A DNA stretch of 32,664 bases. Origin: an uncultured Alphaproteobacteria bacterium (GTDB lineage: Bacteria > Pseudomonadota > Alphaproteobacteria > Rhizobiales > Aestuariivirgaceae). This document shows, one piece after another, positions 16,187 to 27,485 of this stretch (position 1 is the first letter of the stretch; each line of letters begins with the position of its first letter). The translations under genes and the position numbers were made by a program. The stretch spans positions 1-32,664 of the forward strand of contig CALMZX010000126.1 of the NCBI GenBank assembly GCA_937870685.1, given 5' to 3'. The notes under the pieces are model-generated. The model was not told the origin of the DNA, did no database searches, and saw nothing but the letters and a program-made list of their open reading frames with translations.

Positions 16187-16408
16187 ATGCCAGACTACGC
16201 CCTAACCCCTGAATTTTTAACAACTTTCGCCGTCTTCGCCGCCTGCCTCGCAGGCGTCGGCGCACTGGCCTGGCTGGAGAAACGGCCACGCGTCACCCTG
16301 CAACCCCGGCTCCTGCCCACAACACCACTCATGCTGGCAGCGGGATTCGTGGGGCTCTTGGCGCTGGTGCATCTGCTGAATCTGGCCGGGGTGCATACGG
16401 GGCGGTGA
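16187..16408 (+). CDS. small two-span membrane protein, conserved hypothetical
   Basis: 73 residues with two hydrophobic segments (about 10-30 and 46-68) joined by a short basic loop (LEKRPRVTLQPRLLPTTP). The ending LVHLLNLAGVHTGR resembles conserved hypothetical proteins recalled from other Hyphomicrobiales, which supports it being a real gene. The frame opens earlier at 16106, but the extra residues are proline-rich and overlap the rpmJ promoter. The ribosome site is weak. The TGA stop (16406-16408) overlaps the first bases of the composite repeat, so the repeat abuts the gene exactly. Function unknown. Confidence 0.68.
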   Translation: MPDYALTPEFLTTFAVFAACLAGVGALAWLEKRPRVTLQPRLLPTTPLMLAAGFVGLLALVHLLNLAGVHTGR

Positions 16409-16552
16409 CCCCCTCAGTCCTTCGGACAGCTCCCCCAGCGAAGCTGGGAGGAGCGCAAAGTCCTTCACTCATCCCAGCATTGCTGAGGGAGCGTGTTGTC
16501 CTACCCTCCTCCCAGCTTTGCTGGGGGAGGTGGCCGGAGGCCGGAGGGGGTC
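16407..16552. repeat. composite inverted repeat copy 1 (BIME-like), with extra central hairpin
   Basis: Two half-units face each other. The left half 16407-16456 begins GACCCCCTC, the right half 16503-16552 ends GAGGGGGTC. Each half has a small stem (GTCC-TTC-GGAC on the left, GGCC-TCC-GGCC on the right) and a larger stem CTCCCCCAGC/GCTGGGAGGAG. A 46-base centre (16457-16502) holds a degenerate third hairpin, CCCAGC-ATT-GCTGaGG. The left end overlaps the stop of the small membrane gene. The right half encodes the last 17 codons of the DUF559 gene. Confidence 0.9.
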
Positions 16553-16932
16553 CGCTCCGACACCCGCTTTTGGAATCGCGCTGGCTGTCCTTCGAGTGCC
16601 AGAAATATCCCGTCCAGCACATCGCCGAGGTTCTCGTACACATCGCTGTTGAGCACACGGTGCACAAAAAGCCCCTGCGTGGCCAGAAATGCGCTTCGGC
16701 GGGAATCGTGGCACACATCTGCCGCATCGCCGTGGGTGGCACCATCCACTTCGACCACCAGCCCCCGCTCCCGGCAGAGAAAGTCCACGATGTAGGGCCC
16801 GACCGGAACTTGCCGGATGAAGCGGAAGCCTCCGAGTGACTGCTTGCGCAATGCGCCCCAAAGGCGCTGCTCGGCAGATGTGGATTGTTTGCGGAGTGAA
16901 CGCGCAAATCTGCGGGTACTTTGTGCGTGCAT
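16501..16932 (-). CDS. DUF559 endonuclease-like protein (PD-(D/E)XK/Vsr-like fold)
   Basis: 143-residue predicted DNA endonuclease of the DUF559 family, which shares the very-short-patch-repair nuclease fold. Visible motifs are SAEQRLW (E21), GPYIVDFLC (D50), LVVEVDGATHG (E61, D63, H67), DSRRSAFLATQGLFVHRVLNSDVYENL and VLDGIF. The domain looks complete and uninterrupted. Residues 127-143 (RTPSGLRPPPPAKLGGG) are encoded by the inverted repeat at 16503-16552 and the stop TAG is at its inner edge. A good ribosome site (AAGGGGGA) precedes the ATG. The gene is flanked by near-identical direct copies of the repeat (16407-16552 and 16983-17090) and has no operon partner, so it looks like acquired cargo. 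Its target is unknown. Confidence 0.87.
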   Translation of the reverse strand: MHAQSTRRFARSLRKQSTSAEQRLWGALRKQSLGGFRFIRQVPVGPYIVDFLCRERGLVVEVDGATHGDAADVCHDSRRSAFLATQGLFVHRVLNSDVYENLGDVLDGIFLALEGQPARFQKRVSERTPSGLRPPPPAKLGGG

Positions 16933-16982
16933 GAGTGTCCCCCTTCAAGCATCAGACGGGAACACGGTCAGAATCCGTCGCT

Positions 16983-17090
16983 GACCCCCTCAGTCCTTCG
17001 GACAGCTCCCCCAGCGAAGCTGGGAGGAGCGCAATGCTCTACCCTCCTCCCAGCTTCGCTGGGGGAGGTGGCCGGAGGCCGGAGGGGGTC
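16983..17090. repeat. composite inverted repeat copy 2 (BIME-like)
   Basis: Same layout and orientation as the copy at 16407-16552. The left half (16983-17033) is identical to the left half there. The right half (about 17040-17090) differs from its counterpart by one loop base (TTC instead of TTT). The centre is only about 6 bases. Identity continues for about 7 bases past the right end (CGCTCCG). The pair brackets the DUF559 gene, and this copy ends 18 bases from the matB stop codon. Confidence 0.92.
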
Positions 17091-17108: not shown

Positions 17109-18635
17109 TCACTTCCCCTTCCACCTCTCCCGCAGCACCGCCTTCTGCACCTTGCCCATGGCGTTGCGGGGCAGTTCTTGCAGCACGATGATCCGCTTGG
17201 GGCATTTGAAGGCGGCGAGGTGTTGGCGCAGGGTTGCGATCATCGCCGTTTCGTCCAGCACCGCGCCCGGCTTTGCCACCACGGCGGCCGTCACGGCTTC
17301 GCCGAAATCCGGATGCGGCACGCCGAAGACGGCTGATTCCAGCACGCCGGGCATGGCGTCGATCAGCAGTTCCACTTCCTTGGGGTAGACGTTGAAGCCG
17401 CCGGTGATGACGAGGTCCTTGGCGCGGCCGGAAATTGTCACATAGCCATCAGCCGAAATCCGCCCCATGTCGCCAGTGATGAACCAGCCATCGCCGGTGA
17501 AATCCTCCGCTGTCTTCTGAGGATTGCGCCAGTAGCCCTTGAAGACGTTGGGGCCTTTCACCTCGATCATGCCATCGGTCTCGGCAGGCAAGGCCGCATG
17601 GCTGGCGGGATCAGCCACGCGCACGGAGATGTGCGGCAGGGGAAAGCCCACCGTTCCGGCCCGGCGCTCGCCCGCATAGGGGTTGGAGGTGTTCATGCTG
17701 GTTTCGGTCATGCCGTAGCGTTCAAGAATGGCATGGCCGGTGCAGGCGGAAAATGCGCGGTGGGTTTCGGCCAGCAGCGGGGCGGAACCGGAAATGAACA
17801 GGCGCATATGGGCGGTGGCGGCGCGCGTGAGGCCCTCATGCTGCAGGAGGCGCGTGTAGAATGTCGGAACACCCATCAGGCAGGTGGCGCCGGGCATCAG
17901 GCGCATCACGTCATCGGCATCAAACTTGCGGCGGAAGAGTATGCGCCCGCCCGAGAGAAGCAGCGTGTTGGTGGCAGTGAAAAGCCCGTGGGTGTGATAG
18001 ACAGGCAGTGCATGAATCAGCACATCCTGCGGCGTGAAGGCCCAGGCCTCCACAAGCGCCAGCGCATTTGAAGCAAGATTGCCGTGGCTCAGCATCGCGC
18101 CCTTGGAACGGCCCGTGGTGCCGGACGTGTAGAGGATGGCGGCGAGATCTTCCCATGTTGAGGGGTGATCGGCGACCTCGCGTGTGGCACCCTCTACCAG
18201 CGTGCCACCGCCCACATCATCGAGCGTCAGAACGGTGGCCTTCACCCCGGCAGCGACGGACGCAAGCGACTCTTTCCGTTGCGGCGTCACCACCAGAACG
18301 GAGGGTTCCGCATCCCCGACGAAATACGTGACTTCGGCGGCAGTGTAGGCGGTGTTGAGCGGCAAGAAGATGTATCCGCCACGCACGCAGGCCCAGAACA
18401 GCGCGATGGCCTCCGGGCTTTTCTCCACCTGCACGGCAATGCGGTCGCCAGGTTTCGCCCCTGCGGACTGCAACGCAAAAGCCAGACGTCCTGCCAGCGC
18501 CCAGAACTGCGCGAAGGAAAAGCTGCGGCCATCATCGCAGGCGAGGAAGGGGCGCTCCATCTCCCCGCCCCGCGATGTGGCGAGTTCGGCGAGATTGCGG
18601 GCGGCGAGTGTGGCGTTCCAGCGGGTCATGGCCAT
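17109..18635 (-). CDS. matB: malonyl-CoA synthetase (MatB)
   Basis: ATP-dependent ligase of the acyl-adenylate-forming family, making malonyl-CoA from malonate and CoA. 508 residues from the ATG at 18635 (18629 is a possible second start). The P-loop YTSGTTGRSKG is at 169-179. YHTHG at 213-217, ERYGMTET at 305-312 and NTSNPYAGERRAG at 315-327 are as in rhizobial MatB; the arginines after NTSNPY are linked to malonate recognition. The hinge region FITGDMGR and the C-terminal catalytic lysine in PRNAMGKVQ are present. No matA or matC gene is adjacent. It lies 140 bases after the peroxiredoxin gene with a composite repeat in the gap. Confidence 0.9.
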   Translation of the reverse strand: MAMTRWNATLAARNLAELATSRGGEMERPFLACDDGRSFSFAQFWALAGRLAFALQSAGAKPGDRIAVQVEKSPEAIALFWACVRGGYIFLPLNTAYTAAEVTYFVGDAEPSVLVVTPQRKESLASVAAGVKATVLTLDDVGGGTLVEGATREVADHPSTWEDLAAILYTSGTTGRSKGAMLSHGNLASNALALVEAWAFTPQDVLIHALPVYHTHGLFTATNTLLLSGGRILFRRKFDADDVMRLMPGATCLMGVPTFYTRLLQHEGLTRAATAHMRLFISGSAPLLAETHRAFSACTGHAILERYGMTETSMNTSNPYAGERRAGTVGFPLPHISVRVADPASHAALPAETDGMIEVKGPNVFKGYWRNPQKTAEDFTGDGWFITGDMGRISADGYVTISGRAKDLVITGGFNVYPKEVELLIDAMPGVLESAVFGVPHPDFGEAVTAAVVAKPGAVLDETAMIATLRQHLAAFKCPKRIIVLQELPRNAMGKVQKAVLRERWKGK

Positions 18636-18654: not shown

Positions 18655-18770
18655 GACCCCCTCCGCCCCCCAGATCAAGTCTGGGGGGCACCTCCCCCGG
18701 CAGAGCCGGGTGAGGGCAGACATGCGCTCCCCCAACTTGTTGGGGGAGCTGTCCGAAGGACTGAGGGGGA
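18655..18770. repeat. composite inverted repeat copy 3 (inverted order, three hairpins)
   Basis: Left half begins GACCCCCTCCG and carries an extended stem CCCCCCAGA-TCAAG-TCTGGGGGG (18666-18689), then CTCCCCCGGC-AGA-GCCGGGTGAG. The right half (about 18726-18770) is CTCCCCCAAC/GTTGGGGGAG followed by GTCC-GAA-GGAC and GAGGGGGAGC. The GTCC-type half is on the right here, so the element is inverted relative to the other three. It lies between the peroxiredoxin stop (18775) and the matB ATG (18635), 20 bases from the latter. Confidence 0.88.
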
Positions 18771-27381: not shown

Positions 27382-27485
27382 GCCCCCTCAGCCCTTCGGG
27401 CAGCTCCCCCAGCAAGCTGGGTGAGCGTCAATCCTCTGCCCTCCCCCAGCTTGCTGGGGGAGGTGGCCGAAGGCCGGAGGGGGTC
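27382..27485. repeat. composite inverted repeat copy 4 (BIME-like)
   Basis: Left half (27382-27430) is GCCCCCTCA, stem GCCC-TTC-GGGC, then CTCCCCCAGC/GCTGGGTGAG. The right half (about 27437-27485) is CTCCCCCAGC/GCTGGGGGAG, stem GGCC-GAA-GGCC, then GGAGGGGGTC. The small left stem is GCCC/GGGC where the other copies have GTCC/GGAC, a compensating change. It lies between the SURF1 stop (27525) and the thrC ATG (27357), 24 bases from the latter. Confidence 0.9.

Follow-up and report, generated by a model that had tools for sequence, protein, structure and literature searches.

Results

The window, by which we mean the whole stretch of 32,664 nucleotides analyzed here, contains a compact unit between a small membrane protein gene (16187..16408, plus strand) and an AMP-binding, matB-like gene (17109..18635, minus strand). 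The unit spans 16407..17090 and consists of a left composite palindrome (16407..16552), a nuclease gene (16501..16932, minus strand, 143 codons), and a right composite palindrome (16983..17090). The membrane protein gene ends with a stop codon that overlaps the unit on its left, and the nuclease gene takes approximately its final 16 codons and its stop from the left repeat. The encoded protein is a DUF559 (Vsr-like PD-(D/E)XK) nuclease: the Pfam profile PF04480 scores 106.1 bits on the open reading frame (curated cutoff 20.6) and matches the domain at 16594-16917 on the minus strand. DUF559 is the only family-assigned gene of the unit, and no transposase was seen in it. Our Pfam search found no HUH Y1 transposase domain; for the unit it gave only DUF559 and a match to MTES_1575 below the cutoff. 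No tRNA was found as an insertion site, and nothing in an Rfam scan of the window reached gathering scores.

Sequence comparison and DNA folding identify both repeats, neither of which is assigned a strand, as composites of the same type, type A. A type-A composite opens with a CCCCCTC head, which is followed by a small hairpin and a larger one with the arm CTCCCCCAGC; a spacer then leads into the mirror image. The first 52 bases of the two elements, counted from 16407 and 16983, are identical, and the identity reaches one base beyond this on the left. From TACCC at 16504 to past 16552, the right halves are the same except for a single loop base (16519, T versus C). A preliminary description had placed the DUF559 gene between two near-identical composite repeats with right halves one loop base apart, and both observations held. 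The left element is 38 bases longer than the right, with an added spacer that contains a third small hairpin. Each element is predicted to fold as one long hairpin, at -53.0 kcal/mol for the right element (shuffle mean -22.8, z -10.9) and -54.2 kcal/mol for the left (shuffle mean -27.5, z -8.4). The extra small hairpin of the left composite (CTCATCCCAGCATTGCTGAGGGAG, 16460-16500) looks like another copy of the larger hairpin that has decayed. In both elements, CTAC lies just 5' of the mirrored large hairpin (16500-16505 and 17040-17045).

The window holds two further type-A elements, one beside a peroxiredoxin gene (18686..18769, minus strand, 84% identical to query positions 3-91) and one a complete composite (27383..27485, plus strand) that has none of this genome's DUF559 matches at its site. 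In the 3.29-Mb draft genome as a whole, type A occupies at least 40 separate places, four of them in the window (40 of 44 candidates were scored and then merged). No compared locus outside this genome shares type A at an E value of 1e-6. The draft genome has only one other DUF559 match, which is likewise bracketed by two composite palindromes; these follow the same plan as type A but differ from it in sequence (CCCTCACC...CCTCTCCCGC-GCGGGAGAGG). The bracketing of this second gene led us to consider the gene family as a whole rather than a single locus. The same genome carries one RAYT-like Y1 gene (G000:C2:3339-3653, L212).

We compared an AF2 model of the DUF559 protein (pLDDT 86, with lower confidence in the repeat-encoded tail) with known structures. 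The top Foldseek match was NGO0050 of Neisseria gonorrhoeae (3hrl, 3.2e-7), which is also a profile relative of the DUF559 protein (E 4e-36). The best fold match outside the family was the homing endonuclease I-Bth0305I (3r3p, Foldseek 6.9e-5, TM 0.72 by target length), for which profile comparison gave an E value of 2.1e-4. Weaker Foldseek matches were PvuRts1I (4.8e-3), then mitoribosomal chains, then Vsr (1cw0, 0.013). Toxin B-subunit chains appeared in the profile comparison at a chance-like level (E > 0.2). Seven residues (E21, D50, E61, D63, H67, D76, and R79) are invariant among 77 DUF559 sequences, and some of the acidic and histidine residues among them we take to be catalytic, as in Vsr. 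The DUF559 domain is under purifying selection, with dN/dS between 0.03 and 0.36 in 16 of 17 pairs and a 17th pair that has no synonymous change.

We examined the surroundings of DUF559 genes across 199 genomes of the order, 98 of which have PF04480 matches. The matches listed, which stop short of the weakest ones, comprise 150 loci, 142 of them testable, with at least 300 bases on each side; 336 open reading frames of 300 to 750 bases, from 74 of the 150 regions, served as controls. One test compared the left flank with the right by Smith-Waterman alignment and called similarity at a score of at least 44 over 600 bases, a threshold picked after a first pass that found flank similarity at 22 of 31 loci, nearly all among the best-scoring DUF559 matches. 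By this test, 46 of 74 DUF559 loci had similar flanks, compared to 4 of 336 control frames from the same regions (74 testable of 80 regions, each up to 20 kb). Across all testable loci of the order the count was 94 of 142. Two similarity hits (L075 and L097) pair coding sequence rather than repeats, and both of these loci also carry class palindromes.

Of the 142 DUF559 loci, 128 have a CTCCC-arm palindrome no more than 300 bp away on one side or both, compared to 14 of the 336 control frames; for palindromes on both sides, the numbers are 84 loci and a single control. Overall, 137 of 142 DUF559 loci passed one or the other repeat test, as did 17 of 336 control genes, leaving five loci with no repeat by either test. 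DUF559 genes thus have such repeats as neighbors far more often than control genes do, a check that the preliminary description had proposed; the outcome that would have spoken against it, DUF559 genes no closer to the repeats than random genes, did not occur, and no relative was seen to keep the DUF559 gene at the site of the window without the repeats. Where both sides could be classified, they carry the same palindrome class at 71 of 86 loci; shuffling would yield 18 and never gave more than 30. In most bracketed units the CCCCTC heads face the gene. On the left side, heads face the gene in 69 of 114 cases (18 outward, 11 both, 16 ambiguous), and on the right side in 63 of 102 (9 outward, 10 both, 20 ambiguous).

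The bracketing extends beyond the order. Among the matches listed for other orders and classes of the phylum, 24 of 39 loci have bracketing similarity. A wider set of named loci (80 kept of 581, reduced to 75 by leaving out four too near a contig end and one, L293, with a run of N) gave 55 of 75. Controls beyond the order gave 1 of 89. At L330, the match is a long repeat of another kind. The positives, many of them metagenome bins, include Planctomycetota, Gastranaerophilales, Chloroflexi, Omnitrophota, Rickettsiales, Gallionella, Thiobacillus, and Pseudomonas. Judged by eye, the aligned repeats beyond the order mostly retain CCCTC/CTCCC arms.

At L072, L095, L046, and L071, palindromes occur on one side only, and pairs of these loci are collinear over kilobases between species; these are possibly settled copies. 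The DUF559 domains of L040, L050, L108, and L119 sit in open frames of 509 to 1,503 codons, which may be spurious frames in GC-rich DNA or fusions.

We counted dispersed copies with the pattern TCTCCC-N(2-14)-GGGAGA, chosen to capture the two most common classes; type A falls outside it. The 199 genomes of the order comprise 88 with a strong DUF559 match, 101 without, and 10 with weak matches only, which we set aside. The median was 36 places in genomes with DUF559 and 2 in genomes without, and at least 10 places were found in 73 of 88 and 8 of 101, respectively. Copies per Mb correlate with the number of strong DUF559 genes (rank correlation 0.79 in the order), and the DUF559 side has more copies in 17 of 18 mixed families and 12 of 15 mixed genera. 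Outside the order, where 17 of 170 genomes had weak matches only and were set aside, the medians were 27 places with DUF559 (n = 35) and 1 without (n = 118), with at least 10 places in 24 of 35 and 19 of 118 genomes. Repeat number, which the preliminary description had proposed to test, thus follows DUF559 presence within the order, its mixed families, and its mixed genera, and again outside the order. Fewer than five palindromes were found despite DUF559 in 7 of 88 genomes in the order and 6 of 35 outside it.

Y1 genes (RAYT or IS200) occur in 30 of the 199 genomes of the order. We considered them as a driver of copy number and rejected them, since they make no clear difference among the genomes without DUF559 (median 0.67 copies per Mb with Y1 versus 0.52 without, p 0.21). 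In three genomes of one genus (G108, G159, and G179), the class-c hits adjoin IS200-like Y1 genes rather than DUF559; a CTCCC-armed palindrome (ACCTCCCCCTCTGGGGGAGGT) lies about 99 bases from the gene copies compared.

Because the flanking copies by which a class is defined enter its own count, we used a cutoff of at least three places. Among the 17 genomes with a class-d palindrome next to DUF559, class d reaches this cutoff in 14, compared to 9 of 60 genomes with other DUF559 classes (2 of 39 fully read) and 1 of 101 genomes without DUF559. Class c reaches it in 12 of 17 genomes with class-c DUF559, four of the five that fall below having none, compared to 4 of 60 genomes with other classes (1 of 38 fully read) and 3 of 101 without DUF559. 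In two of these last three genomes, the copies are IS200 ends.

The palindromes fall into seven classes, defined by the arm of the larger hairpin and set by eye after viewing the loci. We labeled 91 rows of a DUF559 tree (112 domains, 108 columns, many weak forks) with their class. The tree requires 21 class changes; across 1,000 shuffles the mean was 49.2 and the lowest value 41. The nearest labeled neighbor from a different family has the same class in 61 of 91 cases (20.9 expected, maximum 36 in 5,000 shuffles). Where one genome has two DUF559 genes, their class is the same in 14 of 42 pairs, made up of 7 among the 10 close pairs and 7 among the 32 distant ones. Because the tree has few changes, neighbors agree across families, and same-genome pairs agree in only 14 of 42 cases, class tracks the protein more than the genome. 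As far as the sequences can tell, DUF559 lineages pair with their own palindrome classes; linked inheritance of the gene and its flanking repeats would explain part of the tree signal.

The preliminary description had suggested aligning the interval between the membrane protein gene and matB in close relatives. We read 30 matB loci of 46 places listed. Eleven relatives carry the small membrane protein gene; in nine of these matB follows immediately, with neither repeat nor DUF559, and in the other two the gene is followed by other sequence. None of the relatives read at these 30 loci has DUF559 at the site.

Two other genera provided orthologous sites at which the unit is present in some genomes, each sorted by eye. 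For the site in genus g58, we read 30 loci of 76 genomes with a match, and the flank is 91 to 100% identical. The unit is intact at four loci and broken at three; five loci hold a composite of the same type that lacks the gene, and four hold a single or remnant palindrome of the same type. The remaining loci are composites of other types (eight), empty sites of 39 bases (four), and edge or ambiguous cases (two). Four of the five gene-less composites match the unit over about 70 bases of its left end and 46 to 48 of its right end, with the gene-bearing middle absent, and the fifth retains the left end only. Next to the search anchor (L338-L367), different species carry at least three palindrome types, and the g58 site accordingly looks like an insertion hotspot.

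For the site in genus g33, we read 30 loci of 79 genomes with a match (77 to 100% identical). Here the unit is intact at four loci and broken at one; a clean single palindrome occurs at one locus (L373), remnants at three (L376, L382, and L383), and a probable gene-less composite at one (L389). Eight loci are empty, at 59 to 63 bases, three have short palindrome-free gaps, five carry other inserts, and four lack the left anchor. Sites with one repeat and no DUF559, which the preliminary description had proposed to look for, thus exist at the orthologous g58 and g33 sites and were not found at the site of the window. By eye, and with fuzzy boundaries, filled and empty g58 and g33 sites show no clear target-site duplication. 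One genome (G066) contains two units; between positions -95 and +86 relative to the domain, they are 94% identical. Since the flanks beyond this stretch are unrelated, the homology ends at the outer palindrome ends. Judged from these alignments, the unit has been gained or lost as a whole and, in one genome, duplicated as a unit.

Discussion

We consider it probable that the DUF559 gene and its flanking palindromes belong to a single mobile element, a "REPtron," with a Vsr-type nuclease in the position that a RAYT transposase would occupy. The association, the class pairing, the dispersal, and the presence or absence of whole units are evident from sequence comparison; that the nuclease is the mover is what we infer from them. 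The best reading is a selfish system resembling RAYT/REP and run by an unrelated Vsr-type nuclease. Under this model, DUF559 would recognize the palindrome class it travels with, as duplex, cruciform, or single-stranded hairpin, and would cut in or beside that cognate palindrome. Host repair would then copy the unit into a new site, a gene-less palindrome pair could be copied in trans by the same route, and deletion between the two palindromes would leave a single palindrome as a scar.

A common kind of bacterial repeat may owe its spread to DUF559, as its missing engine. A broader claim seems to us evenly balanced between true and false: that DUF559 nucleases are the missing mobilizers of a RAYT-less superfamily of CTCCC-armed palindromes in many phyla, and that they represent a new class of mobile element, whose single Vsr-fold nuclease mobilizes both itself and non-autonomous palindromes by class-specific recognition and needs no transposase, integrase, or reverse transcriptase. 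If DUF559 drives the repeats described here, these orphan repeats gain an enzyme and a widespread family of unknown function gains a job. There would then be a second, independently evolved REP-type system to compare with RAYT/REP, and the class-specific pairs of protein and palindrome offer a ready set for biochemistry.

An alternative that we judge unlikely is homing, in which the nuclease cuts pre-existing palindromes spread by another process and repair copies only the DUF559 gene into them. The homing endonuclease I-Bth0305I is indeed the best fold match outside the DUF559 family (Foldseek 6.9e-5, profile E 2.1e-4), and single palindromes occur at g58 and g33 sites where relatives hold the unit. 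However, the palindromes are absent from most DUF559-free genomes, so no independent spreader is visible, and many unoccupied sites are free of palindromes (nine at the site of the window, 4 of 30 at g58, and 11 of 30 at g33). In addition, at both of its ends the unit has terminal and subterminal bases in common with four of the five gene-less composites. EDxHD, or Vsr-like, homing endonucleases such as I-Bth0305I resemble the present system in nuclease fold (3r3p) and as lone nuclease genes that may behave selfishly. They differ in that the DUF559 unit of the window is intergenic, bracketed by dispersed palindromes, and without intron or intein, and in the gene-less derivatives of the unit at the g58 site.

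It is quite improbable, in our estimate, that DUF559 is passive cargo, with a host process or RAYT genes spreading the repeats and recombination between repeats carrying the gene. The preliminary description had offered two ideas, that the nuclease may promote spread or maintenance of the repeats as RAYT transposases do, or that direct repeats may let the gene enter and leave by recombination. Direct repeats do bracket the gene of the window and could recombine, and its genome has one RAYT-like Y1 gene. Against this, Y1 genes (30 of 199 genomes) leave copy number unexplained, other genes are seldom bracketed in the same way (4 of 336), and palindrome class tracks DUF559 lineage. Because class tracks lineage and dispersed copies concentrate with the matching class, we favor the RAYT-like idea over passive recombination, which has less support; class tracking and matched dispersal support the former, with the nuclease as its presumptive mover.

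A host-kept, Vsr-like mismatch or hairpin nuclease that handles palindromes would also follow repeat-rich genomes. T:G mismatch nicking and a link to cytosine methylase are the marks of the Vsr mismatch endonuclease, and one of the weaker fold matches is Vsr itself (1cw0, E 0.013). In the accessible part of one report, a Caulobacter protein with a DUF559 domain, VsrA, is linked to the SOS response in cells without cytosine methylase and needed for that response in the methylase mutant (PMC12907096), a result that fits a role in mismatch repair. Such domestication is nevertheless highly improbable as an account of the present data, as a repair gene need not be bracketed by repeats, class specific, present or absent as a unit, or duplicated together with repeat ends. 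The palindromes fold as strong hairpins, but we rejected the idea that they simply serve the DUF559 gene as terminators or regulatory hairpins, which has next to no probability given their placement on both sides of 84 of 142 DUF559 domains, compared to 1 of 336 control genes, and their dispersed copies elsewhere in the genome.

The REPtron reading invites comparison with known repeat systems. MITEs and their autonomous transposons likewise combine a unit that carries the gene with copies that have lost its interior and kept its termini, but the unit of the window carries DUF559 and no transposase was seen in it. RIME and Bru-RS of Rhizobiales, which belong to the same bacterial group, are intergenic composite palindromes like those of DUF559, a likeness that holds by description rather than letter by letter. 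They differ in that no encoding gene is linked to them among the matches listed in our literature search, as far as the accessible text of those sources goes. According to the accessible part of PMC3733652, some of the common small palindromic repeats of bacteria are reported without a dedicated enzyme, and CGTC-tagged REPs, which are common alphaproteobacterial palindromes, are reported without associated transposase genes. In the latter respect they resemble the DUF559 palindromes. Their tag and the start of their stem (AT), as given there, differ from the CTCCC arms of DUF559 palindromes, and DUF559 therefore may or may not serve them. Judged by title and the start of the abstract, none of the DUF559 papers concerns repeats, and no link of DUF559, Vsr, or homing endonucleases with palindromic repeats or REP appeared among the matches listed, in a search with most subscription papers and all preprints outside its scope.

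The closest likeness is to RAYT (TnpA-REP) and its REPs and REPINs. Both systems have a small gene between palindromes, several palindrome classes, and composites of two inverted units, and the cognate palindromes both bracket DUF559 and are dispersed genome-wide. In both, class abundance goes with the cognate gene; for RAYT, the part of PMC3686654 available to us states that REP classes appear to depend on their cognate RAYT for high abundance. The enzymes differ, since DUF559 is a PD-(D/E)XK Vsr-type nuclease rather than an HUH Y1 transposase. The motifs differ as well: the accessible text of PMC8266576 describes a role for GTAG in RAYT-type REPs, whereas GTAG occurs within 12 bases 5' of only 1 of 219 nearest DUF559 palindromes and in a 24-base far-side window of 10 of 219. 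Because the HUH domain is missing and GTAG lies 5' in only 1 of 219 cases, the DUF559 system is, by analogy, one that works like RAYT/REP but is no member of it. CTAC does adjoin the large hairpin in the elements of the window, although the RAYT arrangement has its tetranucleotide on the opposite side.
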